A stretch of 33,754 bases of DNA from Candidatus Eiseniibacteriota bacterium (lineage in GTDB: Bacteria; Joyebacterota; Joyebacteria; Joyebacterales; Joyebacteraceae): NCBI GenBank assembly GCA_030600655.1, contig JAUVLP010000013.1, positions 1 through 33,754 of the forward strand, written 5' to 3'. The notes beneath the pieces are model-generated. The model had not been told where the DNA came from and made no database searches. It worked only from the letters and a program-made list of their open reading frames with translations. This document shows, in pieces, positions 3,029-27,786 of the stretch (position 1 is its first letter; the number at the start of each line of letters is the position of its first letter). The position numbers and the translations under genes were made by a program.

Positions 3029-3041
3029 TCTTCATGCCCTC

Positions 3042-7395: not shown

Positions 7396-7437
7396 GAAGC
7401 GAGAACCCCCTCGTACAACTATTTGTGGCGGAATCGG

Positions 7438-9758: not shown

Positions 9759-11471
9759 TCAGACGAACAGGTCGGTGAACTGGAAGCTCTCGACGTCGAA
9801 AAGCCCCCTGTCGGTCAGCTTGAGCTCCGGGATAACAGGCAGAGCCAGGAACGACATGGCCATGAATGGATCGTCGACCTTGGAGCCGATCCGCTTCGAC
9901 GCCTTGACAACCTTCTCGAGTCCCTTCACTACATTCTCAAGTGCCTCTTCCGACATGAGTCCTGCAATAGGAAGCGGCAGGCCGGCCAACAGCTCTCCAT
10001 CACACACGACGGAGAGACCGCCGCGCATTTTCGAGATCTCGACCACGGCCGCCATCATGTCCTCGCTGCTCGTCCCAATGACGACAATGTTGTGCGAGTC
10101 GTGTGCGACAGAACTCGCAATGGCGCCCTTCTTCAGACCGAACCCCTTGACCAGGCACAACCCGATGTTGTCACTCGCGTGGTGCCGCTCGACGACCGCC
10201 ATCTTGAGGATATCTCTCTTCGTGTCTGCGACTACGAGACCATCCTTCACCTTTACTTTCTCGACCGTTCCGCGTGTGACGATCTGGTCGGGAACCAGAT
10301 TGATGACGCGCGCCTTCGTACCTTTCGCGGCGATGTCGAAATCCCCGGGCGCCAACCATTTGATGTTGATCGAGCTCCGAAGCTGAGGGAGAGGCACTCT
10401 CGGGGGCGGCACTATCATCTCGCCGTTCTCGGCAACCAACTTACCGTTCTTGAAGACCATCTTGATATTGAGTCGCTTCAAACCGTCGACGACAACAAGG
10501 TCCGCCCTATACCCTGGAGCAATTGCTCCGAGGTCCTTGAGACCGAAGTACTGGGCCGTGTTGATGGTGGCCATCCTGATGGCCGTGAGGGGATCGAGTC
10601 CTTCCTTCACAGCCATCTTGACCATGTGGTCTATGTGGCCCTTCTCGAGCAGATCCTTAGGATGCCTGTCGTCGGTAACGAAGAAACAGCGCGAGCTGTT
10701 CTCGCACGTCACGGCCGGGAGAAGATCCTTGAGGTTCTTCGTTACAGACCCTTCCCGGATCATGGCGTACATCCCGAGTCTGAGCTTCTCCGTCATCTCC
10801 TTGACGGTCGTGCTCTCGTGATCGGAGGCGACCCCCGTCGCGATGTAGGCATTGAGGTCTTTGCCGGAGAGACCTGGAGCGTGCCCATCGATCCGCTTGC
10901 GGTCGTGGGTCATTGTTATCTTGTCCAGAAGACCCTCGTCCTCCATCAGAACGCCGGGGAAATTCATTACCTCCCCGAGTCCCAGAACCCACTTCTCCCT
11001 GAGGAGCGGGTAGAGGTCGAATCCGCGCAGAACGGCTCCGCTTGTCTCAAATTCCGTGGCGGGAACGCAGGATGGAAGCATCATGAAGATGTTCACGGGA
11101 CTGTACTTGCTGGAATTCAGCATGTAGTAGATGCCCTCGATCCCGTGGACATTGGCTATCTCGTGAGGGTCGGCGACGACCGACGTGGTGCCCCGCGGCA
11201 CAACGGACCGCGCAAACTCCTGCACCGTCACCATCGTGCTCTCTATGTGCATGTGCCCGTCTATGAGACCGGGCAGCACGAACGCCTTCTTGAGATCGAT
11301 CTCTTTCTTGCCCTCGTAGTCACCGATCCCGACGATGCGCTCGCCCCAGATGGCGATGTCGCCGGCATAGACTTCCGACGAGAACACGTTGACGATCCTC
11401 GCGTTCTTGAGAACCAGATCCGCCGGCATCTTGCCGCGCGCTACCCTGATGATCTTCGCCAGATCCTTCAT
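9759..11471 (-). CDS. ade: adenine deaminase
   Basis: Amidohydrolase that converts adenine to hypoxanthine and ammonia, 570 aa, matching the bacterial Ade family length. The metal site begins with LPGLIDGHMHIEST (about residues 66-79), followed by the Ade-specific VADPHEIANVHGIEG and by VASDHESTTVKEM. The C-terminal domain with FGLKKGAIASSVAHDSHN is also characteristic of Ade and distinguishes it from other amidohydrolases. The ATG at 11471 is preceded by GGGGTG. It follows carbamate kinase by 67 bp. It would feed adenine into the hypoxanthine/xanthine branch of the pathway encoded upstream. Confidence 0.97.
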   Translation of the reverse strand: MKDLAKIIRVARGKMPADLVLKNARIVNVFSSEVYAGDIAIWGERIVGIGDYEGKKEIDLKKAFVLPGLIDGHMHIESTMVTVQEFARSVVPRGTTSVVADPHEIANVHGIEGIYYMLNSSKYSPVNIFMMLPSCVPATEFETSGAVLRGFDLYPLLREKWVLGLGEVMNFPGVLMEDEGLLDKITMTHDRKRIDGHAPGLSGKDLNAYIATGVASDHESTTVKEMTEKLRLGMYAMIREGSVTKNLKDLLPAVTCENSSRCFFVTDDRHPKDLLEKGHIDHMVKMAVKEGLDPLTAIRMATINTAQYFGLKDLGAIAPGYRADLVVVDGLKRLNIKMVFKNGKLVAENGEMIVPPPRVPLPQLRSSINIKWLAPGDFDIAAKGTKARVINLVPDQIVTRGTVEKVKVKDGLVVADTKRDILKMAVVERHHASDNIGLCLVKGFGLKKGAIASSVAHDSHNIVVIGTSSEDMMAAVVEISKMRGGLSVVCDGELLAGLPLPIAGLMSEEALENVVKGLEKVVKASKRIGSKVDDPFMAMSFLALPVIPELKLTDRGLFDVESFQFTDLFV

Positions 11472-11539: not shown

Positions 11540-12478
11540 CTATGCCACTATGCGTGTACCGGTCTTCTTGTCTAGCGCGCGCTCGATGGACTCCGGGTTG
11601 GTTATTATGACCTCTTTCCCTCCCCCTTCGATGAAAGCGATACCGGCTCTTACCTTTGGTCCCATGCTGCCGGCCGGGAAGTGACCTTCATCGAGATACC
11701 TGTTCGCTTCAGCAACGGTCATCATGTCCAGTGGGATCTCCTCAGTCGTACCGAAGTTGAGTACGACCTTCTCAATGTCGGTCGAGATAACAAGAAGTTC
11801 CGCACCTATGTCATTCGCCAGTAGTCGTGAAGCGTGGTCCTTGTCGATGACGGCTTCGACACCGCTGAGACCTGCTTCGTCCTCGACGACCGGAATGCCC
11901 CCACCTCCTACGGCGATAACAATGGATCCGACTTGAAGCAGTGCCTTGATCGAGCGCGCTTCTACGACACGATGCGGGATCGGCGATGCCACAACTCGTC
12001 GCCATCCACGATTGGCATCCTCCACGATATCCCACCCGTCATCTTCCCTGCGTCTTTCAGCTTCCTCCATCGTGTAGAACGGCCCGATCGGCTTGGCCGG
12101 CTTCCGGAATGCAGGATCGTCCCGGTCGACCACGACCTGTGTTACAACCGACACGACCTCCTTGTCGATTCCCCTCTTGCGAAGCTCCCTGCCGAGGACC
12201 TGTTGGATCATGTATCCCATGGCGCCCTGCGAATCCGCGCCACAGGTGTCCAGAGGAAGGTTGGGCAGAACGGAGGAAGCCATCTCGGCTCTCAGGAGAA
12301 TATTCCCGACCTGAGGGCCGTTGCCGTGCGTGATGACAACGTCCCACCCCTTCTCTATCATGCCGGCGATGTGACGACCGGTCTCCGCAGCATTCTCGAA
12401 CTGCTCGGAAATCGTGCCGCGTTGGCCGGCCTTGGTAATGGAGTTGCCGCCGATGGCGACAACAGCAAGTTTGCTCAT
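11540..12478 (-). CDS. arcC: carbamate kinase
   Basis: Amino-acid-kinase-fold enzyme, 312 aa, catalysing carbamoyl phosphate + ADP to carbamate + ATP. Typical sequence includes VVAIGGNSI at the N-terminus, THGNGPQVGN (about residues 50-59), AVGGGGIPVVED and VIDKDHASRLLA, with MGPKVRAGIAFIEGG near the C-terminus. A strong AGGAGG site precedes the ATG and overlaps the end of the upstream transcarbamylase gene (9-bp gap). In E. coli the counterpart in the purine cluster is yqeA. Here it is best read as the ATP-yielding last step for carbamoyl phosphate released by the two adjacent transcarbamylases; an arginine deiminase role is unlikely because arcA is not seen nearby. Confidence 0.97.
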   Translation of the reverse strand: MSKLAVVAIGGNSITKAGQRGTISEQFENAAETGRHIAGMIEKGWDVVITHGNGPQVGNILLRAEMASSVLPNLPLDTCGADSQGAMGYMIQQVLGRELRKRGIDKEVVSVVTQVVVDRDDPAFRKPAKPIGPFYTMEEAERRREDDGWDIVEDANRGWRRVVASPIPHRVVEARSIKALLQVGSIVIAVGGGGIPVVEDEAGLSGVEAVIDKDHASRLLANDIGAELLVISTDIEKVVLNFGTTEEIPLDMMTVAEANRYLDEGHFPAGSMGPKVRAGIAFIEGGGKEVIITNPESIERALDKKTGTRIVA

Positions 12479-12487
12479 TTACTCCTC

Positions 12488-13492
12488 CTACCCCATCGTC
12501 AAAGCCATGATGGCCTTCTGGGCATGCAGTCTGTTCTCAGCTACATCGTAAATGATCGAACGCTCTGCATCGCAGACAGCGTCGTCCGCCTCGTTTCCGC
12601 GATCGATCGGCATCGGATGAATGAAGGCGGCATCGTGTGTCCGAGCCATCCGCTCCGTGGTTGCACGCCAATCCTTGTGCTTGGCGGAGAGCTCCTGCTC
12701 GCCCTCGCGGCCAAGCTCGTAGCGCTTGGGGTGCATCCAGTGGCGCGAGTAGACGACATCAACGCCGTCGTATGCAGCATCCTGATCGTGCGTGACCTCG
12801 AACGTCGTACCCGCGGCCGCACAGTTGGCCTTCGTCGTTTCGATAACGTCGGGGTCGATCTCGAAGCCTTCCGGGTACGCCATGCGCACGTTCATACCGA
12901 GCCGCGAGTTGATCACGATGCTCTCCTGCACGGAGCTCCACGATCTGACCATCGGCGAGTAGCCCCAGATCTGGAGCAGTGTTTTCCCTCTCGTGTCTCC
13001 GATGCTCTCCCGCATCCCCATGACATCGGCTAGTCCCTGGCACGGGTGGAACATGTCGTGCGCCATGCTGATAATGGGAACGGTCGCCACGTCGGCGAAG
13101 TCCCGAAGGAACTTGTCACCATCACCGTACTTCTCGACCGAATCCTCGAGAATCCGGATGCCTATGCCGACACCGTAACGACTCATCACGCCGGCCGTGT
13201 CCTTCATGACCTCCCCACTCTGCGTCTTGCTCTTGAGCCGGAGGTTCTTGGTCTCGAGAAACTGCGCGTGCCCACCCAGCTCCGTCGCCGCCGCCTCAAA
13301 CGACTGGCGTGTCCTCAACGACGAGTTGTAGAACATGAGCATGAACGTCTTGTGCCGGAGGATTGCAGCGTGCTCTTCACTGTACCGCTCCTTCTTCATC
13401 TTCGCGCCAAGCTCAAGCGTCGCCTCCAGCTCCTCAACGCTCCAGTCCTGAGTACAGATGAGATCTCGGCCTTTGAGATTCACTGCCATCAT
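12488..13492 (-). CDS. knotted-type carbamoyltransferase, paralogue 1 (HPMP variant)
   Basis: Aspartate/ornithine carbamoyltransferase superfamily, 334 aa. The carbamoyl-phosphate site reads YNSSLRTRQSFEA (about residues 54-66) and the second motif is HPCQGLADVM. NSSLRTR resembles the NPSLRTR of knotted acetylornithine transcarbamylases, and the region GYSPMVRSWSSV matches the knot-side loop of YgeW/AOTCase. The usual HCLP substrate motif is changed to HPMPIDRG. Three starts are possible (TTG 13495, ATG 13492, ATG 13489); ATG 13492 is chosen because GAGGGG sits 5 nt upstream. It lies 14 bp after paralogue 2 and shares its last segment ENRLHxQKAIMALTM. Proposed role (inference): phosphorolysis of a ureido intermediate of purine breakdown. 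Confidence 0.88.
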   Translation of the reverse strand: MMAVNLKGRDLICTQDWSVEELEATLELGAKMKKERYSEEHAAILRHKTFMLMFYNSSLRTRQSFEAAATELGGHAQFLETKNLRLKSKTQSGEVMKDTAGVMSRYGVGIGIRILEDSVEKYGDGDKFLRDFADVATVPIISMAHDMFHPCQGLADVMGMRESIGDTRGKTLLQIWGYSPMVRSWSSVQESIVINSRLGMNVRMAYPEGFEIDPDVIETTKANCAAAGTTFEVTHDQDAAYDGVDVVYSRHWMHPKRYELGREGEQELSAKHKDWRATTERMARTHDAAFIHPMPIDRGNEADDAVCDAERSIIYDVAENRLHAQKAIMALTMG

Positions 13493-13506
13493 CAAAACCC
13501 CTCTAT

Positions 13507-14559
13507 CTAGACATCCATCGTCAGGGCCATGATGGCCTTCTGTACGTGAAGTCTGTTCTCAGCCTCGTCAAACACTACCGAATTCGGACCGTCGATGACC
13601 TCATCGGTCACCTCGAATCCCCGGTCACACGGCAGGCAGTGCATATATATCGCGTCAGGCTTTGCGAGCTTCATCTTCGCAGCGTCGCAGATCCAGTCCT
13701 TGTTGGCGTCGAAGAGCTCCTGCGTCTTCTCCATCATCGGCGCGTCGGCGATCGGCGGAATGAAGTGCTTCGAAGTCCACGCCTTCGGGTAAACGACATC
13801 GGCGTCCTTGAAAGCCTCTTCCATGTTGTTCGTTATCTCAAACGAACCGCCGGACTCCTCGGCGCGCTTGCGCGTCGCAGCGAGAACATCATCGTCAAGC
13901 TCGAGCCCCTTGGGATGCGCCAGAACCACATCACAACCGACGGTGGCGGCTGCGATCACTGCGCTGTGAGGAACCGACAGTGGCTTGTGAACGCTCGGGC
14001 TGTAGGCCCAGCTCATCACGAACTTCTTCCCCTTGAAACCGCCGCAGTGTTCTTTGACGGTAAGGATGTCGGCCATACCCTGGCAGGGATGGTAGATGTC
14101 ACACTCCATGTTGATGATGGGAACGCGCTCGGCCCAGTGTGCGAACTCACGCACTATGCGGTTGGCCTTGCCGTTGACCCAACCGACGGGATCCCCGTAT
14201 ATCCGGATGGCCATGCCGTGCCCCATGCGGTCGAGCACACGCGCCACATCCGAGATACGCTCGGTCGAGTAGGCGACCTCTTCGCCCTCGAGCACAGGCA
14301 TGTAGATCTTGTTGGGATCGAGGAAATGCGCGTGGCCACCCATCTGCGTCATCCCCGCCTCGAAACTGTTTCTCGTTCTCAGAGATGAGTTGTAGAAGAT
14401 CATGAAGAGTGTCTTGTCCTCAAGGTACTTGTGAGAACGCCCCGACTTAAACTTCTCCTTGAGCTCCGCCGAAAAATCGAGAATGAATTCTATCTCTTCC
14501 CTCGTGTAGTCCAGAAGTGTGATGAAATCTCTGCCCCTGAAGTCTTTCGTACTGAACAC
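13507..14559 (-). CDS. knotted-type carbamoyltransferase, paralogue 2 (YgeW-like, HCLP)
   Basis: Carbamoyltransferase of 350 aa with motifs YNSSLRTRNSFEA (about 56-68), HPCQGMADIL and MHCLPCDRG. The segment MSWAYSPSVHKPLSVP, followed by SGGSFEITNNMEEAFKDADV, closely resembles E. coli YgeW as I remember it, where the same region forms the trefoil knot. YgeW belongs to the anaerobic purine/urate gene set and its physiological substrate is not firmly established. The start is GTG at 14559 with GGAGG about 6 nt upstream. The two paralogues are in tandem, clearly from a duplication, but have diverged at the substrate-binding motif. An arginine-biosynthetic acetyl- or succinylornithine role remains possible but the neighbourhood argues against it. 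Confidence 0.9.
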   Translation of the reverse strand: MFSTKDFRGRDFITLLDYTREEIEFILDFSAELKEKFKSGRSHKYLEDKTLFMIFYNSSLRTRNSFEAGMTQMGGHAHFLDPNKIYMPVLEGEEVAYSTERISDVARVLDRMGHGMAIRIYGDPVGWVNGKANRIVREFAHWAERVPIINMECDIYHPCQGMADILTVKEHCGGFKGKKFVMSWAYSPSVHKPLSVPHSAVIAAATVGCDVVLAHPKGLELDDDVLAATRKRAEESGGSFEITNNMEEAFKDADVVYPKAWTSKHFIPPIADAPMMEKTQELFDANKDWICDAAKMKLAKPDAIYMHCLPCDRGFEVTDEVIDGPNSVVFDEAENRLHVQKAIMALTMDV

Positions 14560-14610: not shown

Positions 14611-14662
14611 TCAGACACATTTTGCCGTGCACAGCAAACCAGTCAGTCTCTCAGACACATTT
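14611..14662. promoter_or_regulatory. palindrome flanked by 12-bp direct repeats, operator-like
   Basis: In the gap between the FAD-subunit gene and the YgeW-like gene, positions 14621-14638 read TTTGCCGTGCACAGCAAA, a dyad with 9-bp arms and one mismatched pair. The 12-mer TCAGACACATTT occurs at 14611-14622 and again at 14651-14662 (inside the 3' end of the FAD-subunit gene), exactly 40 bp apart and bracketing the dyad. The arrangement looks like a regulator site for internal control of the transcarbamylase/carbamate kinase genes. No convincing -35/-10 pair was found next to it. Confidence 0.4.
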
Positions 14663-15503
14663 CCTCAAGCGACGACGCCGTCAGTGATTCCACGAGCATT
14701 GTTCTGTACTCGGCCGTCGCCCTCACATCGTCTATCGGACTCGCCACCTCGACAGCGAGTTGCGCCACTGCCTTCACAAGCTCCGGTTGGTCATTCGAAG
14801 TCACCCACTCCGACTCGAAGTGCTCCTCGGCCGCCCTCGCGCGCACCACTGTCGGAGCAACCGAACCGAAGGCTAATCGTACTGTTGCCGTCCCGGGATC
14901 GAACGTAGCCCCGATCGAGACTATTGCGATGGCAAGCGCGTTACGCTGCCCGACCTTACGATAGTAGCTGCGGGCTCCAGCGTCGGGCAGGTCGAACGAA
15001 ACCCCGGCAATGAGCTCATCTGCGGCCAGCGTCGTCGCTCCCGGCCCCTTGAAGAAACCCGCGATAGGAATGATGCGCTCCCCCCGCACCGACAGAACAC
15101 GCACATCGGCATCCAGAGCCGCGAGCGCCGTCACGCTGTCGGCCGCAGGCGAGGCGTTCGCTACATTCCCCCCGATCGTACCTAGAGACCGTGTCTGTGG
15201 GGAGCCAACCGCGGCGCACGCCGCAGCAAGCAATCCGACTCTCTCGCGCATAATCGGGTGCTCGGCGATCTCGGCATGTGTGGCAAGCCCACCGAGCTCA
15301 ACGCGTCCATCGGCGATGGTTATCTCCGCGTGTCCTGACACGGCGGAGAGATCTACAAGCACGTCCGGTCTCGATACGCGCTTTCGGATAAGCACGGCGA
15401 GATCCGTCCCTCCAGCTATCACCTTCCCGGATTCACCGGCGTCGGCGATGGCGATCACGGCCTCGTCCAGGCTTTTTGGATGTCTCCAGACCGGCTCGTA
15501 CAC
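14643..15503 (-). CDS. xdhB: xanthine dehydrogenase-type molybdenum hydroxylase, FAD-binding subunit
   Basis: Medium (FAD) subunit, 286 aa, of the xanthine dehydrogenase/CO dehydrogenase family; it passes electrons from the 2Fe-2S clusters to NAD or another acceptor. The two FAD-binding motifs are clear: IAGGTDLAV (about residues 30-38) and LGTIGGNVANASPAAD (about 107-122). The C-terminal CO-dehydrogenase flavoprotein-like domain with RKVGQRNALAIAIV is also present. The start is GTG at 15503 with GGGAG upstream, 4 bp after yqeB. Its Fe-S partner is about 6 kb away at 21.5-22.0 kb and no Mo-binding large subunit is present in the window, an unusual scattering of subunits. Confidence 0.95.
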   Translation of the reverse strand: MYEPVWRHPKSLDEAVIAIADAGESGKVIAGGTDLAVLIRKRVSRPDVLVDLSAVSGHAEITIADGRVELGGLATHAEIAEHPIMRERVGLLAAACAAVGSPQTRSLGTIGGNVANASPAADSVTALAALDADVRVLSVRGERIIPIAGFFKGPGATTLAADELIAGVSFDLPDAGARSYYRKVGQRNALAIAIVSIGATFDPGTATVRLAFGSVAPTVVRARAAEEHFESEWVTSNDQPELVKAVAQLAVEVASPIDDVRATAEYRTMLVESLTASSLEEMCLRD

Positions 15504-15507
15504 TGCA

Positions 15508-16338
15508 TCATCTCCCAGGCAGAAAACCCCGTGACAGGAGAGCCTCTAACACGCCTCCGCCGATGGCGAGAGCTTTATCGGAGACGGTGGCAGGATCTAT
15601 CCGGTCGCCACGCGGATCGATATCCCCACTCTTCTGGCCCTCACGGAGTTCCACACCGTCCGAGACGAGCCCGCGGATGAGCCCACCGGTCCGGGCGACC
15701 ACCGCCCTCCCCCCGACCTCACCGAGTCTGTCACCGGCCTCAACCAGGTCTCCTATCTGTCGCGTGGACTGAAAGGGACCGTTTGCCGGAGAACGCACTA
15801 TCCGCTCCTCGGTCACACCCAGCACCGCACCGGGAACACCGGTGTCGGGTTCAGCGCACCCGGATCGAATGACCCGGCCCAACCTGTGTCCACGGTTGGT
15901 CTCGATCACTAGATCCACATCCCGACCGGCTTCGAATCCCGGCCCCAGTCCAATCGTGAGAGGAGCGTCGCTGATATCGGCTCCAAGGTTTCGCTTCGCC
16001 ATCCTGGCGTCCACTACCACGTCGGGACTCAGAATGCTGAGCGAACGCCCTTCCGGATCAACGACGACGGATATCGGCTGACCCGCTGCGCTTTCCGGAT
16101 CCCAGAAACCGATGGAAGTGGTCTCAAGCTCTTCCAGTGTGATTGAAAGCGAGGGGATTTCTTCAACGGACGCACGCCCGTCGAACACGGCCTGGGCAAA
16201 AGAGACTTTCCTTCTGACGACCGTGGGGCGTTCTGCTTCGAGAACCACCACTCTGTAACCTGCGCTCACAAGCCTGAAAACGACCCCGCTCCCGAGATCT
16301 CCCCCGCCCCTCACGATAATCAGGCTGTCCTGCTTCAT
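15508..16338 (-). CDS. yqeB: YqeB/EF2563-family selenium-dependent molybdenum hydroxylase accessory protein
   Basis: 276 aa protein of the EF2563 family. It starts with a glycine-rich nucleotide-binding turn IIVRGGGDLGSGVVFRL and continues VVVLEAERPTVVRRKVSFAQAV, which is highly diagnostic. The family co-occurs with selenium-dependent molybdenum hydroxylases carrying a labile Se atom and is thought to mature that cofactor; the exact reaction is unknown. Its ATG overlaps the xdhC stop by one base (TGATG), so the two are coupled. Its presence suggests that the hydroxylase encoded around it may be Se-dependent (inference). The companion gene yqeC and selD are not in the window. Confidence 0.93.
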   Translation of the reverse strand: MKQDSLIIVRGGGDLGSGVVFRLVSAGYRVVVLEAERPTVVRRKVSFAQAVFDGRASVEEIPSLSITLEELETTSIGFWDPESAAGQPISVVVDPEGRSLSILSPDVVVDARMAKRNLGADISDAPLTIGLGPGFEAGRDVDLVIETNRGHRLGRVIRSGCAEPDTGVPGAVLGVTEERIVRSPANGPFQSTRQIGDLVEAGDRLGEVGGRAVVARTGGLIRGLVSDGVELREGQKSGDIDPRGDRIDPATVSDKALAIGGGVLEALLSRGFLPGR

Positions 16339-17165
16339 CAGTCTCTGTCCCGCCCCTTGAAGCCCATCTTGTCCATCAGTCTCGCCGTATCTCTAATGCC
16401 GTGCTTCACTGCAATTATCTCGGCGATGACACTGACCGCGATCTCATCGGGAGTCTCTGCTCCAATGTCGAGCCCGATAGGGGCATGCACAGTGTCGAGT
16501 TCGACACGCGATACTCCCTCTGCTTCGAGCTCGGTGAATGCCTCCGTGACCTTTTTCTCGCTTCCGAGCATTCCAAGGTAGGCAGGCTTCTTCACGATTA
16601 GCTTCCTGACCCACTCCTTGTCGAACCGGTGCCCCCTCGTTACTACGACCACGAAAGTCTCTCCACTCACCTTGAGATCACTCTCAAGGAGCTCCTCATT
16701 TCCCACGAGTCGCAACTCCGCGAAAGGGAATCGTTCCAGAGATACCATCTCCGCTCGGTCGTCAACCACAGCCACGCGAAACCCGGACTGTCTGGCCGCC
16801 CGCGCCACTGCCAGACCGACGTGTCCGGCGCCTATGACGACGAGCATCGGGCCGGAAGCGATGGGCTCGAGGAAGATCTCCATGCCACCACCGCAGGCCA
16901 TGCTCTGATCGCTACCGAGATCGAATGAGAAGAGTTTGCTCTCCTTCGACCCGATCATTCTTCCAGCTTCGTTGATGACCGTGCTTTCGATCGCACCACC
17001 ACCAACGGAACCGAGTATGCGTCCGCCCGCATAGACGATCATCTTGGCGCCTGCGCCTCTGGGCGTCGAGCCATCCGTGCGTACGACTGTCGCAACAACT
17101 CCCGAGACTCCCTCCCGGTGCATTCGCGCCAGCTCTTCGTAGATATCCGCAAGCCTGAGCGCCAT
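16338..17165 (-). CDS. xdhC: XdhC/CoxI-family molybdenum hydroxylase maturation factor
   Basis: 275 aa protein of the XdhC/CoxI family, which in characterised systems binds molybdopterin cofactor and promotes its sulfuration and insertion into xanthine dehydrogenase. The N-terminal XdhC domain shows VVRTDGSTPRGAGAKM and GGGAIESTV; a conserved Cys lies in MACGGGMEIFLEP. The C-terminal Rossmann domain begins LVVIGAGHVGLAVARAA and contains VTRGHRFDKEW and YLGMLGSEKK. The ATG at 17165 has a strong AGGAGG. It lies 35 bp after the MocA-type gene. Fusion of both domains at this length is normal. Confidence 0.95.
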   Translation of the reverse strand: MALRLADIYEELARMHREGVSGVVATVVRTDGSTPRGAGAKMIVYAGGRILGSVGGGAIESTVINEAGRMIGSKESKLFSFDLGSDQSMACGGGMEIFLEPIASGPMLVVIGAGHVGLAVARAARQSGFRVAVVDDRAEMVSLERFPFAELRLVGNEELLESDLKVSGETFVVVVTRGHRFDKEWVRKLIVKKPAYLGMLGSEKKVTEAFTELEAEGVSRVELDTVHAPIGLDIGAETPDEIAVSVIAEIIAVKHGIRDTARLMDKMGFKGRDRD

Positions 17166-17200: not shown

Positions 17201-17800
17201 CTACCCGCCGATCCCGTTCTTCACGGCCTCGTAATCATCAGTTTCGTCAATGTCGACCAGGAAACCTTCATCGTCGATCGGGACCTCGACGATACGGTCG
17301 GCATCGCGCTCGAGGATGTGTCTTGCTCCTGCATCCCCGTCCAGCTCTTCGAGTTCATCTCTGTAGGATCCATCGATGAGGATTGGATGCCCACGGCGTC
17401 CCGCGCTCACAGGCACGACGATTGCCGCACCGTGCGAGTGGGAATCGACCAGTCTGTCCACATCCTCGACGCAGAAGAACGGGGCGTCACCCAAGACAAC
17501 AAAGATGCCGTCCGTCCCCCACGAGCAGGCGCTGGCGCCCTGCGCCAGAGATGTCCCCATCCCGTCGCTGAACCGCCTGTTTCCCACAAGCTCAAGCCGC
17601 TCGTCTATGATCCCGGAAAGCGCCAAGCCTACCTCATCGGCGTGAGCGCCGAGCACTACGATAACCTCGTCGATCTTGCTCGAAGCAAGGAGCTTGTCCA
17701 CAACAAGCCGGATCATCGGCGTTCCCTCGATCGGGAGCAGCTCCTTCTTCGTCCCCATCCTCCGGGACTCACCCGCAGCCAGTACGACCGCTGAAATCAT
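17201..17800 (-). CDS. MocA/YgfJ-like molybdenum cofactor nucleotidyltransferase
   Basis: Nucleotidyltransferase of 199 aa, the usual MocA length. MocA transfers CMP onto Mo-molybdopterin to make the cytosine dinucleotide form; YgfJ is the paralogue in the E. coli purine cluster. The NTP-binding N-terminus reads VVLAAGESRRMGTKKELL (residues 5-22), followed by VVLGDAPFF, which holds the metal-binding Asp, and GRRGHPILI. The ATG at 17800 follows GGAAGG. The product would supply the dinucleotide cofactor to the hydroxylase; CTP versus GTP specificity cannot be decided from the motifs. It is separated from the upstream aminotransferase by 114 bp holding a strong hairpin. Confidence 0.9.
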   Translation of the reverse strand: MISAVVLAAGESRRMGTKKELLPIEGTPMIRLVVDKLLASSKIDEVIVVLGAHADEVGLALSGIIDERLELVGNRRFSDGMGTSLAQGASACSWGTDGIFVVLGDAPFFCVEDVDRLVDSHSHGAAIVVPVSAGRRGHPILIDGSYRDELEELDGDAGARHILERDADRIVEVPIDDEGFLVDIDETDDYEAVKNGIGG

Positions 17801-17914: not shown

Positions 17915-19069
17915 CTAGGCCATATTCTTACGGATGTTCTCGACCGCTTTCTCGATGTTCTCCAGGGAGTTGGCGTAGCTGAATCTGAGGTAGCCTTCTC
18001 CATTACTGCCGAAGCAGGTTCCAGACAGACAGGCCACACCCGCGTCATTGAGCATTCTGTCAGCGAGTTCCTGAGACGGTATGCCGGTCTCCGTAATATT
18101 CGGGAACACGTAGAACGCACCCTTCGGCTTGAGACACGAGAAGCCCTTGACGTCGTTGAGACCGTCCACGATCGCGTCTCTTCTCTGCCTGAAGATCCCC
18201 AGCATCTCACCGACCTTGTCCTGTGGACCCGTGAGCGCCTCAGCACCGGCGATCTGGACGAAAGTGGTCGCATGGGAGTAGACGTTCGTGTTGAGCTTGG
18301 TGAACTTCTCAGCGATCGCCTTAGGCATTGCGGCGTAGCCAAGACGCCACCCTGTCATTGCGTATGTCTTGGAGTGCGCGTCCATGAGGATGGTGCGCTC
18401 CTTCATCCCCGGATATGCAGCGATGGTGTGATGCTCCCCTTCATAGATCATCTTGCTGTAGACCTCATCGGAGAGAACGATAATATCGTTCTCAACCGCC
18501 AACTCGGCGATGCGCTTGAGATCGCTCTCCTCGAGCACTCCTCCCGTAGGATTCTGCGGCGAGTTGATGATCATCATCTTCGTCTGCGGGCCGACCTTCT
18601 CCTCAAGCTCAGCGATGTCGAAGCGGAAGTCACGGTCCTCCCTGTACATGAGCGGGATGGCTTTCCCGCCGGCGAAATTGATGGCCGACTCGTAGATCGG
18701 ATAACCTGGATTCGGATAGATCACCTCGTCACCATGGTCGACAAGCGCCAGGATCGGGAGGAAGATGATCGGCTTGCCGCCCGGGGTCAGGACGATCTCA
18801 TCCGGTGAATACTGAATGCCGCGATCCTTTGCGAAGTGCTCGCATATGACCTCGCGCACTTCCATGAGACCCGCGGAGGGACCGTAGTGCGTACGACCCG
18901 CCCAGATGGCGTCGACCGCCGACTGGCGGATGTTGTCCGGTGTATCGAAGTCCGGCTCGCCTATCTCCAGATGAACGATATCGCGTCCCTGTGCTTCGAG
19001 CGCCCTCGCTTTCGCCAGCACCTCAAAGGCGGTCTCCGTTCCCAGTCTGTTCATTCTTTCTGCGAACAT
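17915..19069 (-). CDS. class I/II PLP-dependent aminotransferase
   Basis: Fold-type I aminotransferase of 384 aa, close to bacterial aspartate/aromatic aminotransferases of subgroup I-gamma. Seen: EIGEPDFDTPDNI near the N-terminus, NSPQNPTGG (about 170), SDEVYSKMIYEG, and the Schiff-base lysine in AHSKTYAMTGWRLGY. The C-terminal Arg for the substrate carboxylate lies in GYLRFSYA. The track's start at 19084 lacks a ribosome site; the ATG at 19069 has AGGAG 7 nt upstream and the family-typical N-terminus. The amino donor is not determinable. It may move nitrogen from an amino-acid product of ring cleavage to pyruvate or 2-oxoglutarate (inference). Confidence 0.93.
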   Translation of the reverse strand: MFAERMNRLGTETAFEVLAKARALEAQGRDIVHLEIGEPDFDTPDNIRQSAVDAIWAGRTHYGPSAGLMEVREVICEHFAKDRGIQYSPDEIVLTPGGKPIIFLPILALVDHGDEVIYPNPGYPIYESAINFAGGKAIPLMYREDRDFRFDIAELEEKVGPQTKMMIINSPQNPTGGVLEESDLKRIAELAVENDIIVLSDEVYSKMIYEGEHHTIAAYPGMKERTILMDAHSKTYAMTGWRLGYAAMPKAIAEKFTKLNTNVYSHATTFVQIAGAEALTGPQDKVGEMLGIFRQRRDAIVDGLNDVKGFSCLKPKGAFYVFPNITETGIPSQELADRMLNDAGVACLSGTCFGSNGEGYLRFSYANSLENIEKAVENIRKNMA

Positions 19070-19137
19070 CGAATCTCTCCTCATTTACCACGGACTCTTG
19101 CCCGTGCGTGCCGAAGCCCGCCCACAACCGATTCCAG

Positions 19138-19176: not shown

Positions 19177-20199
19177 CTACCTGCTCCTTGCTTCCTCTTC
19201 ATGTGCGCCGGCGGCGCCACCTTTTTTCATTGTCAGTACCTCGCGGATCGCCGTCGCGATCCCGCGGGACGTCAGGCCGAAATGCTGAAGGAGTTCCTCG
19301 TGCTCACCCGACTCACCAAATCGGTCTTCTATGCCGACTATCTTCATCGGGACCGGGCGACCCACTTGCGCAAGCGCCTCCGCGCAAGCGCCCCCGAGCC
19401 CGCCGATGGAGGCCCCCTCTTCGACCGTCACGATTGCGCCCGTCTCCACAGCCACCCTGCTCACCATCGCCCGGTCGAGTGGCTTGACCGTGTGACAGTT
19501 GATAACCCTCACACTGATTCCCTCATCTTCAAGCTTCCGCGCCGCCTTCATGGCCTCATAGACGACGACCCCACATGCCAGCACGGACACATCGTCGCCT
19601 TGCCTGTAGACTTCGGCCTGCCCCATCGTAAACGGGGTCAGATCCGTCGTCACGATAGGCACACGCGCCGACGCAAACCGCAGGTAGACTGGACCAGGGA
19701 TCCGCGAAGCGGCCATCGTGGCTTTCTTCGCCTCCATGGAGTCAGCCGGAACTACGACCGTCATACCTGTGAGCGTTCGCATAACGGCGACGTCCTCGAG
19801 TGACTGTCTCGAACCACCCGCCGCTCCAGCCGAGAGCCCGGCGTCCGCGCCACATATGTTCACGTTCAGCGTGCCGTAGCAGATCGTCGAACGAATGATA
19901 TCCCACGCCTTGCCTGCCGCCAGCATGCCGTGCGTCGTCACGAAGATGCACTTGCCGGCAAGCGCCATCCCGGCAGCCGTTCCTATCATATCCTGTTCAC
20001 ATAACCCGATGTCCATGAATCTGTCGGGGAAACGCTTCCTGAACTCGCCCGTTCCGCTGGACCCCGCGAGATCGGCATCCATGACAATAATGTCGGAACC
20101 CCGCTCGGCAAGTTCGATCAGTCCGCGCTCGTAACCCCGGCTCGTCGCCTCCAGCTTCACCGCGGTGTGATGTATGTCGGCAAGCCCCATCTCGGCCAT
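19177..20199 (-). CDS. split transketolase, C-terminal subunit
   Basis: C-terminal half of a split, thiamine-diphosphate-dependent transketolase, 340 aa, holding the PYR domain and the C-terminal domain. The catalytic Glu region reads FMDIGLCEQDMIGTAAGMA (about residues 62-80). SAGAAGGSRQSLEDVAVMR matches the GxTHQxxED-type loop of this family, and the C-terminal domain has VINCHTVKPLD. The track's start at 20358 is too early because it overlaps the N-half gene out of frame; ATG 20199 has AGGGG upstream. Two-gene transketolases are common in Archaea, Clostridia and candidate phyla. Role: pentose phosphate interconversion, or a dedicated ketol transfer in this pathway (inference). Confidence 0.93.
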   Translation of the reverse strand: MAEMGLADIHHTAVKLEATSRGYERGLIELAERGSDIIVMDADLAGSSGTGEFRKRFPDRFMDIGLCEQDMIGTAAGMALAGKCIFVTTHGMLAAGKAWDIIRSTICYGTLNVNICGADAGLSAGAAGGSRQSLEDVAVMRTLTGMTVVVPADSMEAKKATMAASRIPGPVYLRFASARVPIVTTDLTPFTMGQAEVYRQGDDVSVLACGVVVYEAMKAARKLEDEGISVRVINCHTVKPLDRAMVSRVAVETGAIVTVEEGASIGGLGGACAEALAQVGRPVPMKIVGIEDRFGESGEHEELLQHFGLTSRGIATAIREVLTMKKGGAAGAHEEEARSR

Positions 20200-20242
20200 A
20201 AGTGTTACCCCTGGTAAACGTCCAGTACTGCTCTGCCGCGTT

Positions 20243-20262
20243 CGCCGGTCCGTAATCCGGCG
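20243..20262. repeat. intercistronic stem-loop between split transketolase genes
   Basis: CGCCGG and CCGGCG arms (6 bp) flank an 8-nt loop in the 70-bp gap between the stop of the N-half gene and the start of the C-half gene. No T-run follows, so read-through is expected. Confidence 0.4.
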
Positions 20263-20269
20263 TCGGTTC

Positions 20270-21085
20270 CTACGAGAGCGCCTGCATGGCCTCCTCGTAC
20301 AGATCTTCAGTAACCTTCTTGTCGTGCCACTCCGGACTGTTCTCCATGAAGGGAACACCCTTACCCTTCACTGTGCGTGCGAGAACAAGCGATGGCTTCC
20401 CCTTCACTGACGCGGCCTCTCTGAACGCCGCGAGCAGCTGCTCCATATCGTGGCCGTCGGTCTCGATGACGTGCCAGTTGAAGGTGCGCCACTTGTCCCC
20501 CAGCGGCGCGAGCGCCGCGATCTTCTCCGTGTCCCCGTCACCCATCATATGATTCCGGTCTATGATGGCACAGACGTTGTCCAGGCCGTGATGCGCCGAC
20601 GTCATGGCGGCTTCCCAGACCTGTCCCTCCTGCGTCTCCCCGTCGCCAATCAGGCAGTAGACGCGGAAACTCTTCCCGTCGCGCTTAGCGGCAAGCGCAA
20701 GGCCGTTGGCTATCGAGAGCCCTTGACCCGGCGAGCCCACCGACGCATCTATGCCCAGCGTCTTATGCATGTCCGGAAACCCCTGGAGCTTCGACTTCAG
20801 CTTCCGGAAAGTCAGGAGTTCTGCCACGTCGAAGTAACCGCGCCGCGCTAGAGCGGCGTAGAGCGCCGGAGCCGCGTGCGCTTTGGAAAGGACGAAGCGA
20901 TCGCGCTCTTCCCACACCGGTCTGTCCGGTCTGATGTCCATCACTTCCCAGTACAAAGCGGTGATGATGTCGGTAGCTGAGAGCGATCCTCCCGGGTGAC
21001 CGGAGCCGGCCTCCAGCAACATCGTGAGAATGTCACGTCGAACAGCCTTGGCTACGCCCCTCAGTTCTGTCGGGGTGGGACTCAT
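20270..21085 (-). CDS. split transketolase, N-terminal (TPP-binding) subunit
   Basis: N-terminal half of the split transketolase, 271 aa, carrying the thiamine-diphosphate-binding PP domain. Characteristic sequence is AGSGHPGGSLSATDI (about 26-40), SKAHAAPALYAALA, and the Mg-diphosphate motif IGDGETQEGQVWEAA followed by IIDRNH. The ATG at 21085 has AGGAGAG upstream, and the gene begins 9 bp after the PPC-domain gene. Together with the downstream C-half it rebuilds a complete enzyme. Alternative specialised members of this family, such as apulose-phosphate transketolases, cannot be excluded. Confidence 0.94.
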   Translation of the reverse strand: MSPTPTELRGVAKAVRRDILTMLLEAGSGHPGGSLSATDIITALYWEVMDIRPDRPVWEERDRFVLSKAHAAPALYAALARRGYFDVAELLTFRKLKSKLQGFPDMHKTLGIDASVGSPGQGLSIANGLALAAKRDGKSFRVYCLIGDGETQEGQVWEAAMTSAHHGLDNVCAIIDRNHMMGDGDTEKIAALAPLGDKWRTFNWHVIETDGHDMEQLLAAFREAASVKGKPSLVLARTVKGKGVPFMENSPEWHDKKVTEDLYEEAMQALS

Positions 21086-21520: not shown

Positions 21521-21985
21521 TCAGTCCTCCGTCCGCGACGCGGCCTCGACCGCATCCACGATCTTCACATAGCCGGTGCATCTGCAGAGATTTCCCGACA
21601 GCGCCTCTGCGATCTCCTCGCGCGAGGGATGCGGTTTCTTCGAAAGAAGAGCTGCGGCTGACATTATCATGCCGGGCGTACAGTACCCGCACTGTACGGC
21701 CCCTGTTTCGATGAACGCCTGCTGAATGCGGTCGAGCTTTCCGTTCTCTCCACTCAGTCCTTCTATAGTTACCACTTCCCGGCCGTCGCATTGCGCCGCA
21801 AAGACAAGGCACGAAGTCACGGGTTCGCCGTCGAGAATAACAGTACAGGCGCCGCACTCGCCGTTCCCACAACCGCACTTGGTTCCTCTGAGACCGAGGT
21901 GCTCACGCAGAAGCTCGAGGAGCATCGTCGCAGGCGGAACTTCAGCCGTCCGCGTTTCGCCGTTCACTGTGAGAATGACCTTCAT
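21521..21985 (-). CDS. xanthine dehydrogenase-type molybdenum hydroxylase, 2Fe-2S subunit
   Basis: Small iron-sulfur subunit of 154 aa; in E. coli nomenclature the counterpart is the XdhC Fe-S protein, distinct from the XdhC/CoxI maturation factor above. The plant-ferredoxin-like cluster is bound by CGCGNGECGAC (37-47) plus a Cys near 59. The second cluster uses CGYCTPG (99-105) and CRC (134-136). It relays electrons from the Mo centre to FAD. The start was moved from 22018 to ATG 21985, because the longer form overlaps the upstream gene and the family begins with MKxxLxVNG. It lies 4 bp after the ThrC-like gene. Confidence 0.96.
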   Translation of the reverse strand: MKVILTVNGETRTAEVPPATMLLELLREHLGLRGTKCGCGNGECGACTVILDGEPVTSCLVFAAQCDGREVVTIEGLSGENGKLDRIQQAFIETGAVQCGYCTPGMIMSAAALLSKKPHPSREEIAEALSGNLCRCTGYVKIVDAVEAASRTED

Positions 21986-21989
21986 ACAT

Positions 21990-23231
21990 TCACTCTCCAA
22001 GAGCCCGCTCGACATCATTCAGCGACTGCCCTATCGCCAGCGGTTCACCAATCGACTTCATAGCCGCATCGGTGTCCTTGAGACCGCTTCCGGTCATCAG
22101 GACAGCGATCTTCTCGTCCGGCGCCACCATCCCTTCCCGAACGGCCTTGGTGAGACCTGCGAAGGCCGTCACACCCGCCGGCTCGCCGAAGATACCGGTC
22201 GCCTGCGCCAACTCGCGAATGGCCCCGATAATTTCATCGTCAGTAACGGTCATAACTGTTCCACCACTCGCCTTGATTCCCCGTACAGCTTTCCGCCAGT
22301 TCCTCGGGTGGCCGACCGCAATGCTGTCAGCAATCGTGCGAGCGCTGCACGGCACGAGTTCGCCCCCGCTCTCGAATACTCGCTTCACCGGACTCGCACC
22401 CTCGGCCTGAACGCCGATGAGCTCGGGCATCCTGTCGATGAACCCCAGCTTCAGGAACTCGGCAAATCCCTTGTATGTCCCGCTCATGATGCAACCGTCC
22501 CCGACAGGAACAAACACCCTGTCAGGAACCTGAAAGCCGAGCTGCTCGCATATCTCGAACGCCACGGTCTTCTTGCCCTCGACGAGATAGGGATTCACAG
22601 CGCAACAGCGGTTGTACCAGCCGTAGCGCTCAATCGCCTTGTTCGCAAGATCGAAGGCATCATCGTAGCTCCCGTCGACGGTGAAGACGGTCGCGCCGTA
22701 AACAAGAAGCTGTGCCACCTTCGGGCGGGGGGCCGTTTTGGGAACGAAGATGTAGCACGGAACCCTGTTTGCCGCAGCGAAGCCCGCCAGCGAGCATCCC
22801 GCGTTGCCGGTTGAGGCTGCGGCTACGGCTTTCACGCCCTCCTGAGTTGCTCTCGCCATGGCGACCGAGGTCGCCCGGTCCTTGAGAGACGCCGTCGGGG
22901 TGAAGCTGTCATCCTTGATGTGAAGGTCCGATAGTCCGAGCACACTCTCCACGTGATACAGGGGTGTCCAACCGACTCGGAGCGGCGGGGCGTGTTCAAG
23001 GGACTCGACCGGCATCAGCGGCAGATAGCGCCAGTGGGACAGCTCGGTCGAACGGGAGAGATCCTCCCTGGTGAAACGCGACGCGATCTCGTCGTAGTCG
23101 TAGAGGACATCGAGGATGCCTTCCACGCCACACTCGGGACACGTGAACCGAACCTCGTCGGGCGCATACTCACGCCCGCACTTCGCACACTCGAGCGCTC
23201 TGACTCTTGCTCCCCTCACACGTTCTCCCAT
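21990..23231 (-). CDS. threonine-synthase-like fold-type II PLP enzyme
   Basis: 413 aa PLP enzyme with an N-terminal zinc-ribbon-like stretch CAKCGREYA...CPECG (residues about 16-34), as in archaeal and actinobacterial threonine synthases. The PLP lysine lies in PTASLKDRATS (about 111-121). The Asn loop reads STGNAGCSLA where ThrC usually has STGNTSAS. The phosphate-binding loop is VPVGDGCIMSGTYKGF, unlike the GNAGNxTAxxKG of ThrC and the GGGGL of dehydratases. No homoserine kinase or dehydrogenase lies nearby. In known purine/urate clusters the fold-II enzyme is YgeX (diaminopropionate ammonia-lyase), so this protein may fill a similar amino-acid elimination step (inference). A true ThrC remains possible. 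Confidence 0.8.
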   Translation of the reverse strand: MGERVRGARVRALECAKCGREYAPDEVRFTCPECGVEGILDVLYDYDEIASRFTREDLSRSTELSHWRYLPLMPVESLEHAPPLRVGWTPLYHVESVLGLSDLHIKDDSFTPTASLKDRATSVAMARATQEGVKAVAAASTGNAGCSLAGFAAANRVPCYIFVPKTAPRPKVAQLLVYGATVFTVDGSYDDAFDLANKAIERYGWYNRCCAVNPYLVEGKKTVAFEICEQLGFQVPDRVFVPVGDGCIMSGTYKGFAEFLKLGFIDRMPELIGVQAEGASPVKRVFESGGELVPCSARTIADSIAVGHPRNWRKAVRGIKASGGTVMTVTDDEIIGAIRELAQATGIFGEPAGVTAFAGLTKAVREGMVAPDEKIAVLMTGSGLKDTDAAMKSIGEPLAIGQSLNDVERALGE

Positions 23232-23234
23232 CTG

Positions 23235-24644
23235 CTATATCCGGCTCCAGAGATCGCGCGCCAGCTCTCTCGCCCGCGCCGCCGTGCCTGATGCATCAAC
23301 CGTTGTGAACTCCCGGTCCCGCATGACATCCCGCCCACCGATGATCACCGTCTCGACCATCCATCCGGTCAGGCCGAATATCACATGTCCTGTGAAGTTC
23401 CTCGCCTCGAGCGGAGTCGGGGGATCGTAGTCGAGGACAATAATGTCCGCGAGCGATCCGACTGAGAGCTCGCCGACCGTACCGTTCACAAGGCGAGACC
23501 CGATCACCGCGTTGTTCCTCAGGCAGAGCCGCTCCGCGACATCGTGCCCCGCCCGGGGGTCACCTGCCTGGTGCCGGTGGATCAGGTTGGCAACCTTCAT
23601 CTCGTCGAACATGCTCCCTGTGAATCCATCCGTCCCCAACCCGACAAGGACTCCCGCCTCAAGCATCCCCGGGACATCAGCGCATCCGACTGCATTGTTC
23701 ATATTGGACTGCGGGTTGTGAACGACGATCGTCCCCGTGTCTATCAGGATATCCCGCTCGTGCTCACTGATGTGAATGCAATGCGCCGCGATCGTTTTCT
23801 TTCCCAGGATGCCGTGCTCGTGCAGTCGCTCGGCAACACGCTTCCCGCAGCGCTTGAGACTGTCCTCAACATCCGCCTGATCCTCCGCCACGTGTATATG
23901 ACAACCGACGCCGGCATCCCCGGCGATTCCCCCGGCCCGGTCCAATGTATCGTCATCAACGGTGAAACTCGCGTGGAGTCCGACGCTTGCCGTCAGGAGC
24001 CCCACACCGTCCTCAGCGCAGTCGTCGTCAGCACCACGGTCGCCAGTACTGCCGCCCGTGGATCCCGATGATTCCGCTGACGCCACCAGCTCCCGGATAA
24101 AGGCCTCGCTCTCCGCCAGCCCCTCTTCCCGCTTCGTCTCTCCGTTTCTGTCGGTGATCTCGAAGCAGAGATTCGCGCGTATCCCGATCTCCTCAAGGGC
24201 CTCCGCCACATTGGCCAGGCTGTCCGTGACGCTCACCTGGCTGGCATGGTGATCTATGATGGTCGTCGTGCCGCTCCGCACGAGATCGAGGGCGCCTGCA
24301 GCCGCCGAGTACCACGTATGCTCGTGCGTCAGGGCGCGATCGAGCTTCCACCAGAGGTGTTCAAGTATCTCGACAAAATTGGCCGACGGTGCAATGTCGG
24401 CCATAAGGCCACGCGCCAATGCACTGTAGAGGTGTGTGTGCGCATTTATGAACCCCGGCATGATCAGCTTGCCGCTCGTGTCGATCACTTCAGCGCCATG
24501 CTGCCCGGAGACAACCTCCGAGGCAGGACCAACTGCCACGATTCGATCACCATCAAAAGCGACCGCACCACCTTTTATGACCACCGGTTCAGGCCCGCCC
24601 GTAAATACGGTCCCTCCGCTCAGGATTCTCGTGACATCAGGCAA
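23235..24644 (-). CDS. ssnA: SsnA-family aminohydrolase
   Basis: Metal-dependent amidohydrolase of 469 aa closely resembling E. coli SsnA as I remember it. Shared stretches are LWWKLDRAL, IDHHAS, CFEITDRNG, SNMNNAVG, LGTDGFTGSMFDEMK and DYDPPTPL. Metal ligands begin with GFINAHTHLYSALARG (about 64-79), then HIHVAEDQ, AHCIHIS and the GTDG Asp. SsnA belongs to the conserved anaerobic purine/urate gene set, probably as a purine-ring deaminase or hydrolase. The start is TTG at 24644, with AGGAG about 9 nt upstream; the GTG at 24710 in the track has no such site. A Ser/Gly/Asp-rich insertion of about 25 residues near position 190-214 is absent from E. coli SsnA. It is the first gene of the long minus-strand unit. 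Confidence 0.93.
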   Translation of the reverse strand: MPDVTRILSGGTVFTGGPEPVVIKGGAVAFDGDRIVAVGPASEVVSGQHGAEVIDTSGKLIMPGFINAHTHLYSALARGLMADIAPSANFVEILEHLWWKLDRALTHEHTWYSAAAGALDLVRSGTTTIIDHHASQVSVTDSLANVAEALEEIGIRANLCFEITDRNGETKREEGLAESEAFIRELVASAESSGSTGGSTGDRGADDDCAEDGVGLLTASVGLHASFTVDDDTLDRAGGIAGDAGVGCHIHVAEDQADVEDSLKRCGKRVAERLHEHGILGKKTIAAHCIHISEHERDILIDTGTIVVHNPQSNMNNAVGCADVPGMLEAGVLVGLGTDGFTGSMFDEMKVANLIHRHQAGDPRAGHDVAERLCLRNNAVIGSRLVNGTVGELSVGSLADIIVLDYDPPTPLEARNFTGHVIFGLTGWMVETVIIGGRDVMRDREFTTVDASGTAARARELARDLWSRI

Positions 24645-24725
24645 TCTCGCACTCCTGGATAAACCAAGACAACGGTTCGACACGCTCCGCGCCGACACCC
24701 CGCATCGCACCTGAATCCCTAGAAT

Positions 24726-26391: not shown

Positions 26392-27786
26392 CTACTCCAC
26401 CCGATGCCCCGGTCTCTGACAGACCTTGCCGCGTCTGATGAACGATCCGAGCTCGTGGCTTCCCACGAGCTCGCGGTCTCTTACGACCCAGTTGCCGCGA
26501 ACCATTGTACAGACGGGCCAGCCTGTGACCTGCAAGCCATCGTAGGGCGAGTAGTCGGTGTACCCGTGGAGAACGTCCGGAGAGATCGTTACCTTGAGAT
26601 CCGGATCGAAGATGACAATGTCAGCATCTGTTTCGACCGAGAGCGTTCCCTTCTCCGGACAGAGCCCGAAGATCTCAGCAGGATGCGTACTCAGAAGATC
26701 GACGAGCTGATTCTCCGTCAGCCTCCCCTCCCGGACTCCGTACTGCCACATGAGCGGAAGAAGCGTGCCTATACCGGGAACACCCATCGGAATCTTCCTG
26801 AAGTCCGCTGCCCCCTCATCCTTGGCTTCCGCCATGAACTCGGCGTGATCGGTTGCCACCACCTGGATCAGCTCCTCTTCGAGCGCGTCCCAGAGCTCCT
26901 CGCGATGAGCCTTGGAGCGGATGGGCGGACAGGTTGCGAAGCGCTGGCCGTCGGCGGTCGCGAGCTTCTCCTCGTCGAGAAGCAAGAAGTGCGGACAGGT
27001 CTCCGCGAAAACGTCGATCCCGGCATCCTTGGCCTCGGCTATCGTCTTGGCAGCCTCACCTGAGGAAACATGCACAATGTAGACAGGGGCACCGGCATCG
27101 CACGCCATTCTGATGACGGAGGCGACAGCTTCTCCTTCCACGTAACCGGGCCTGGTCTCGGCGTGATCGGCCGCTGACAACCTTCCCTGATTGGTCAGCC
27201 GGGCGATGCGGCTTTCGATCATCCATTCGTTCTCGCAGTGCACTTCGATCAACCCGCCGTGTTGACCGGCGAGGAGGAATGCCTGGTAGAGTTCATCCTC
27301 GCTGCTGGCCAGTCCCGCATCAGAGTAGACGGTGTACATCTTGAAGGATGGGATGCCTGCCTCGATCATCTGGGGGATCTCATCGTCCTCCCGGTCTTCC
27401 CACCGAACGAGCGACGCATGGAGGCCGTAGTCCACGTAGCATTGTCCGTTCGCCCGCGCCTGACGGGCGTTGACAGCTTCCATGAGCGACTCGCCGACGC
27501 GCGGTGTTACGTATGTAAGAAATGATGTCACGCCGCCGAACGCAGCCTCGCGTGTTGTTGCACGGAAATCGGAAGACGCGTGTCCTCGGAGTTCCAGACC
27601 GACGTGAACGTGCGCGTCTATGACACCGGGGAGAACAAGTTTGCCCGAAGCATCGTAGACGTCTGCGCCCGCCGGCGCAGCCAGGTCGATCCCGATCTCC
27701 ACGATCCTGCCATCTTCAACCAAGAGGTCGGCCGCGTAGGAATCGATCGCTGTGACGAGCTTTCCTCCCTTGATCATGACTGCCAT
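26392..27786 (-). CDS. hydA: dihydropyrimidinase/hydantoinase-family amidohydrolase
   Basis: Cyclic amidohydrolase of 464 aa, the normal length for D-hydantoinase/dihydropyrimidinase, which opens cyclic ureides to carbamoyl amino acids. Binuclear metal ligands: VIDAHVHVGLE (about 55-65), the lysine carboxylated in the family in PSFKMYTVYSD (about 146-156), EVHCEN, YIVHVSSGEA and the Asp in VATDHAEF. In the known anaerobic purine/urate gene set the matching gene is hyuA/hydA, acting on a hydantoin- or ureide-type intermediate. The ATG at 27786 has AAAGAGGA upstream. It is transcribed separately from ssnA, from its own promoter near 27.87-27.90 kb. Confidence 0.95.
   Translation of the reverse strand: MAVMIKGGKLVTAIDSYAADLLVEDGRIVEIGIDLAAPAGADVYDASGKLVLPGVIDAHVHVGLELRGHASSDFRATTREAAFGGVTSFLTYVTPRVGESLMEAVNARQARANGQCYVDYGLHASLVRWEDREDDEIPQMIEAGIPSFKMYTVYSDAGLASSEDELYQAFLLAGQHGGLIEVHCENEWMIESRIARLTNQGRLSAADHAETRPGYVEGEAVASVIRMACDAGAPVYIVHVSSGEAAKTIAEAKDAGIDVFAETCPHFLLLDEEKLATADGQRFATCPPIRSKAHREELWDALEEELIQVVATDHAEFMAEAKDEGAADFRKIPMGVPGIGTLLPLMWQYGVREGRLTENQLVDLLSTHPAEIFGLCPEKGTLSVETDADIVIFDPDLKVTISPDVLHGYTDYSPYDGLQVTGWPVCTMVRGNWVVRDRELVGSHELGSFIRRGKVCQRPGHRVE

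Follow-up and report, generated by a model that had tools for sequence, protein, structure and literature searches.

A threonine synthase-like PLP enzyme in a reductive urate gene cluster of a Candidatus Eiseniibacteriota bacterium is a candidate replacement for YgeX

We identified a gene for a threonine synthase (ThrC)-like PLP enzyme of 413 aa (PF00291, 240.7 bits) at positions 21990..23231 on the minus strand of the window, the whole 33,754-nucleotide stretch of Candidatus Eiseniibacteriota DNA that we analyzed. Phylogeny, changes in the substrate pocket, co-localization with urate genes in about ten lineages, and the lack of YgeX together strongly support the placement of this protein's clade in the reductive urate pathway. 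We consider it fairly probable that the protein is a ThrC-related enzyme dedicated to the reductive (yanthine) urate pathway, where it would work on C-beta of 2,3-diaminopropionate (DAP), the final three-carbon remnant of the purine with its two amines, in place of YgeX, the enzyme of this step in E. coli. Both DAP as the substrate and the elimination chemistry are inferred from gene context. The first-pass annotation had proposed that the enzyme might do the work of YgeX. Membership in the pathway has stood, given the neighboring urate genes, the missing YgeX, a window family that lacks homoserine dehydrogenase, and the separate clade and altered pocket; beta-elimination is the predicted chemistry.

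The gene sits tightly packed in its operon, exactly where the first-pass annotation had put it, and the plus strand is closed there. Every window gene for which we give coordinates lies on the minus strand. Upstream, the frame of ssnA, of the dihydro-yanthine aminohydrolase family (23235..24710; NF005540, 530 bits against a cut-off of 444; TIGR03314, 514 against 455), ends at 23235, leaving 3 bp, and is probably overlong at its N-terminus. Downstream lies the gene for an XdhC-type molybdenum hydroxylase Fe-S subunit (21521..21985), whose second in-frame ATG at 21985 leaves 4 bp; its longest open reading frame starts at 22018 and would overlap the ThrC-like gene. The gaps of 3-4 bp claimed earlier between ssnA and the Xdh Fe-S gene are thus borne out.

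The surrounding cluster has much of what reductive urate breakdown is known to use. Curated cut-offs are passed by SsnA, by YqeB, a marker of selenium-dependent Mo hydroxylases (15508..16338; TIGR03309, 320.6 bits, cut-off 220), by carbamate kinase (11540..12478; TIGR00746, 389 bits, cut-off 358), by adenine deaminase (9759..11471; TIGR01178, 663 bits, cut-off 472), and by a HyuA-type hydantoinase (26392..27786; TIGR02033, 433 bits, cut-off 393). Two knotted carbamoyltransferases of AOTCase/YgeW-like type (13507..14559 and 12488..13495) both score under the YgeW equivalog cut-off. Also present are a molybdenum hydroxylase FAD subunit (14643..15503), an XdhC-family maturation factor (16338..17165), a MocA-like molybdenum cofactor cytidylyltransferase (17201..17800), a class I aminotransferase (17915..19084), an MFS transporter gene, and a BMP-type ABC importer with a binding protein, an ATPase, and two permeases (2126..8451, with a MurJ-like gene within), which probably carries nucleosides or purines. 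A PCC-domain gene (PF03479; 21095..21517) is kept inside the operon across Eisenbacteria loci. The position of a split transketolase-like pair (19177-21085) is likewise conserved in these loci. Its N-terminal half occupies 20270..21085 and its C-terminal half 19177..20358, with a true start probably later than that frame implies. Compared with TktA, the halves keep the ThDP motif, H26, H66, H261, and E411, while H100 is missing, as are D469 and H473 in the C-terminal half.

The window cluster has FAD and Fe-S subunits but no Mo subunit, for which there are candidates on three other contigs (C39, C135, and C212). The C39 candidate, 994 aa long, shares 35% identity with E. coli XdhD. That this XdhD-like subunit lies on another contig, and that no YgfK/UacX gene has so far been placed in the window's genome, weigh against the explanation that we favor. 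On C135, an AllG-type oxamate carbamoyltransferase subunit lies near Mo hydroxylase genes (L045:15044-16534), hinting at a second purine-related pathway. In a close relative whose ThrC-like protein is 90% identical, DHO_dh + Fer4 (UacX/PydA-like) and ygfT-like genes lie upstream of hyuA (L007:1731-4543); neither turned up at the corresponding position in the window.

The protein itself is recognizably built on the ThrC plan. Its AlphaFold2 model (pLDDT 91.7, pTM 0.91) finds ThrC structures as its best PDB matches, with 33-36% structural-alignment identity to bacterial ThrCs and TMt values of 0.83-0.90. Two N-terminal C-x2-C pairs (C15/C18 and C31/C34) stand ahead of the PALP fold, and the Schiff-base lysine is K117, aligned to K61 of Thermus thermophilus ThrC. 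Both PLP loops had been called atypical at first pass. This holds for the phosphate loop, GDGCIMSG (residues 244-251, 22479..22502), which stands where ThrC has GNAGNIT and reads GDGC for GNAGN, but not for STGNAGCS (residues 140-147, 22791..22814), an Asn loop of ThrC type whose STGN is normal in solved ThrCs. The alignment also revealed replaced active-site positions beyond these two loops, which had gone unmentioned before. Because about ten lineages, with 35 homologues between them, keep the loop and pocket pattern, it is not a product of chance.

These replacements lie in the substrate pocket. In our alignment, N154, S155, R160, N188, and N191 (T. thermophilus numbering) are invariant in five solved ThrCs, and the first four presumably contact the phosphate of the substrate. 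In the window protein these positions read C, A, L, D, and I, and its diagnostic residues are A211, L216, D245-G246-C247, and D302-S303. Across 35 clade members, 28 bacterial and seven haloarchaeal, R never occurs at position 160, which holds L, V, T, or Q instead, position 188 is Asp in all 35, and position 239 is always Asp; in the window protein's numbering, every member has D245 and D302. Judged from sequence, a pocket that has lost an Arg and gained an Asp would accommodate a positively charged beta-ammonium group more readily than a phosphate. The Asp of the YgeX Asn loop is also missing, its place being taken by T141, so the ThrC-like enzyme may not accept both DAP isomers.

Phylogeny sets the urate-associated proteins apart. 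Among the 49 proteins of the final tree, those from urate clusters share a single branch (support 93/99) that recurs in 100% of bootstraps, apart from a branch of canonical ThrCs (support 100/99), which comprises the solved ThrCs and the copies beside thrB/hom. Some carriers have both kinds: in Thermoanaerobacteraceae, Synergistaceae, and Bacteroidota, second, canonical ThrC copies adjoin thrB, hom, or lysC, and these group with the solved ThrCs. YgeX itself is absent from carriers of the ThrC-like gene, as no protein in any of 22 carrier genomes matched the YgeX model over its cut-off. The ThrC-like protein scores 51 bits against that model (NF006058), for which the cut-off is 276.

Genomic context follows the same division. 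One genome scan yielded 35 relatives, at 29 clade loci and six non-clade loci; within the stretch examined per locus, urate-pathway genes accompany all 29 of the bacterial clade loci and none of the six others. The gene orders vary, running thrC-ssnA-ygfK-xdhD-ygeW-PALP475-ygeY in Bacteroidota (L021), hyuA-ssnA-xdh-ade-thrC-PALP475-ygeY-OTC in Izimaplasma (L034), ygeY-ygeY-thrC in Synergistaceae (L020), and OTC-OTC-arcC-thrC in Caldisericota (L017), the last with the same trio of two carbamoyltransferases and a carbamate kinase as the window. Genes for removing ureido groups come as two carbamoyltransferases (window, L017), as two YgeY-like hydrolases (L020), or as one of each (L021, L022, L030, L034). 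Such pairing is what one would expect if each 2,3-diureidopropionate loses two ureido groups and all variants arrive at DAP.

Reductive-urate genes also stand at the clade member in six of seven haloarchaeal plasmids inspected. These clusters combine thrC with ssnA, hyuA, an LLM-class (F420-type) oxidoreductase, a D-aminoacylase, a Zn-dependent hydrolase, and a Mo hydroxylase, and that of Haloarcula marismortui has a nucleobase symporter in addition; the orthologue in Haloarcula hispanica is HISP_RS18845. An M20 gene is the only pathway-type neighbor in Haloprofundus, and no urate-type neighbor was seen at the clade member of Salinigranum. In five haloarchaeal plasmid clusters of urate type with the LLM-class oxidoreductase and D-aminoacylase (L088, L090, L094, L095, and L096), the clade member is annotated as threonine synthase.

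From this context, a route through the window operon can be proposed. SsnA and HyuA open the rings to give 2,3-diureidopropionate, whose two ureido groups would both be released in the form of carbamoyl phosphate by the two carbamoyltransferases, working with carbamate kinase. The tandem carbamoyltransferases (12488-14559) and the kinase may thereby replace YgeY. The ThrC-like enzyme would then bind DAP on PLP and eliminate its beta-amino group, and the resulting aminoacrylate would either break down to pyruvate and ammonia or take up water to give serine, much as ThrC adds water at C-beta.

The strongest competing explanation, which we nevertheless regard as unlikely, shares the labor between two PALP proteins that work one after the other or each on a different isomer: the ThrC-like enzyme would racemize DAP or act on albizziin, and a second protein, PALP475, would be the DAP ammonia-lyase. 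PALP475 is CysK-like, about 475 aa long with a C-terminal extension, and has neither an NCBIfam model over cut-off nor a close solved structure. It is present in 24 of the 25 genomes that carry the ThrC-like gene, and both genes are missing together from two genomes of the window's phylum (G005 and G019). The two lie adjacent or one gene apart in five loci (L016, L018, L020, L030, and L034) and share a cluster in a sixth (L021); on a Bosea plasmid, PALP475 is near a RidA-family gene, as would be expected of an aminoacrylate-forming lyase. Against this division of labor, the urate cluster of Eisenbacteria, Bipolaricaulota, and Caldisericota includes the ThrC-like gene but not PALP475, which is found elsewhere. 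The window's own genome is a case in point, with PALP475 on the minus strand of contig C248 (L046:3757-5223). Haloarchaeal clusters, considering the plasmids only, have the ThrC-like gene without PALP475, and one carrier genome (G006) has no full-length copy. The pairing was counted among carriers and could be partly background. PALP475 could be the DAP lyase, which would leave the ThrC-like enzyme another role. Either a two-enzyme DAP step or a serine intermediate may be at work.

Serine could also be the main product of the ThrC-like enzyme acting on DAP as we favor (DAP + H2O -> serine + NH3) and be passed on to SHMT or other reactions that use serine, a sub-case that we hold to be somewhat less likely still. 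The mechanism of ThrC includes water addition at C-beta. In three loci (L016, L018, and L020) an SHMT gene lies directly beside the ThrC-like gene or one gene away, which favors serine over pyruvate, and L020 also has a formate-THF ligase; however, no SHMT was seen in the remaining clusters. The aminotransferase and transketolase pair of Eisenbacteria is a loose fit, with key donor residues missing from the transketolase. A route from serine through hydroxypyruvate to transketolase in Eisenbacteria stays speculation, because the halves lack H100, D469, and H473 of TktA.

The ThrC-like protein does score 215.7 bits against the ThrC model TIGR00260 (cut-off 167.1) and 298.1 bits, just under the cut-off of 303, against PRK08197, the Zn-ribbon ThrC subtype. 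It is the only ThrC homologue and one of just two PALP proteins found in its genome, and most genomes of the window's family have a single orthologue. Had this been the sole ThrC of a threonine-prototrophic genome, the first-pass reading would have fallen, but homoserine dehydrogenase (PF00742), which a genome needs to make the ThrC substrate O-phosphohomoserine, was not found in this genome, which is 99.4% complete, and was absent from 20 of 20 genomes searched in the window's family while present in 14 of 14 control genomes. The alternative of an ordinary threonine synthase that happens to sit in the urate operon, to which the TIGR00260 score and the ThrC structural matches would lend themselves, is therefore very improbable, and we rejected it on the missing hom gene, the separate clade, and the altered pocket, with the separate canonical copies beside thrB, hom, or lysC in other carriers also speaking against it. 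Cysteate synthase was rejected as well (88 bits against a cut-off of 325), as was threonine dehydratase, which gave weaker models only and has a different phosphate loop.

If DAP is indeed the substrate of the ThrC-like enzyme, recognizing its family would supply the missing last step of urate breakdown for about ten lineages, among them Haloarcula, whose ygeX slot had been left empty (PMC2276186). It would also correct a systematic misannotation of this clade as "threonine synthase", and would widen the range of the reductive urate pathway to archaea and to deep-branching bacteria from the environment. The family may serve as a test case for how ThrC chemistry is redirected by a few pocket changes, with an Arg lost and an Asn turned to Asp. 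More broadly, and more tentatively, a ThrC relative usually paired with a CysK-like PALP may form an unrecognized terminal urate module that replaces YgeX from Eisenbacteria to haloarchaea, yielding serine in some lineages, with two carbamoyltransferases conserving both ureido groups as ATP in Eisenbacteria.

Set beside its known relatives, the ThrC-like enzyme has the fold, the K117-D-R motif, the STGN loop, and the N-terminal Cys pairs of ThrC, but differs in its separate clade, five replaced pocket residues, its urate-cluster setting, and the lack of homoserine dehydrogenase in the window's family. With YgeX it shares PLP fold type II and, by gene context, the same pathway position, but it belongs to another PALP branch (25% identity over 124 aa) and has no Asn-loop Asp. 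None of the papers searched mentions "diaminopropionate ammonia-lyase" together with "threonine synthase".

The reductive urate pathway was solved in 2025 (Li et al., PMC12507026) and ends with DAP and YgeX (PMC12507026; PMC12990295). The neighborhood survey in that study marked YgeX solely by a PF00291 gene near ssnA (PMC12507026), which makes the YgeX and ThrC-like families indistinguishable and would have kept the latter hidden. Like the clusters of E. coli and Clostridioides difficile (PMC12507026), the window has ssnA, hyuA, carbamoyltransferase, carbamate kinase, Mo hydroxylase subunits, and Mo cofactor maturation genes. Unlike them, it has neither ygeX nor ygeY, with the ThrC-like gene in ygeX's place and two carbamoyltransferases, and its split transketolase, aminotransferase, and PCC genes are extra. 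The haloarchaeal plasmid clusters match the F420 and UacY variants of Li et al. (PMC12507026). In 2008, Haft and Self described a selenium-dependent Mo hydroxylase locus in H. marismortui, with SsnA and hydantoinase on a plasmid and an empty ygeX column (PMC2276186); the neighboring "thrC", not listed by them as part of the system, belongs to the ThrC-like clade.
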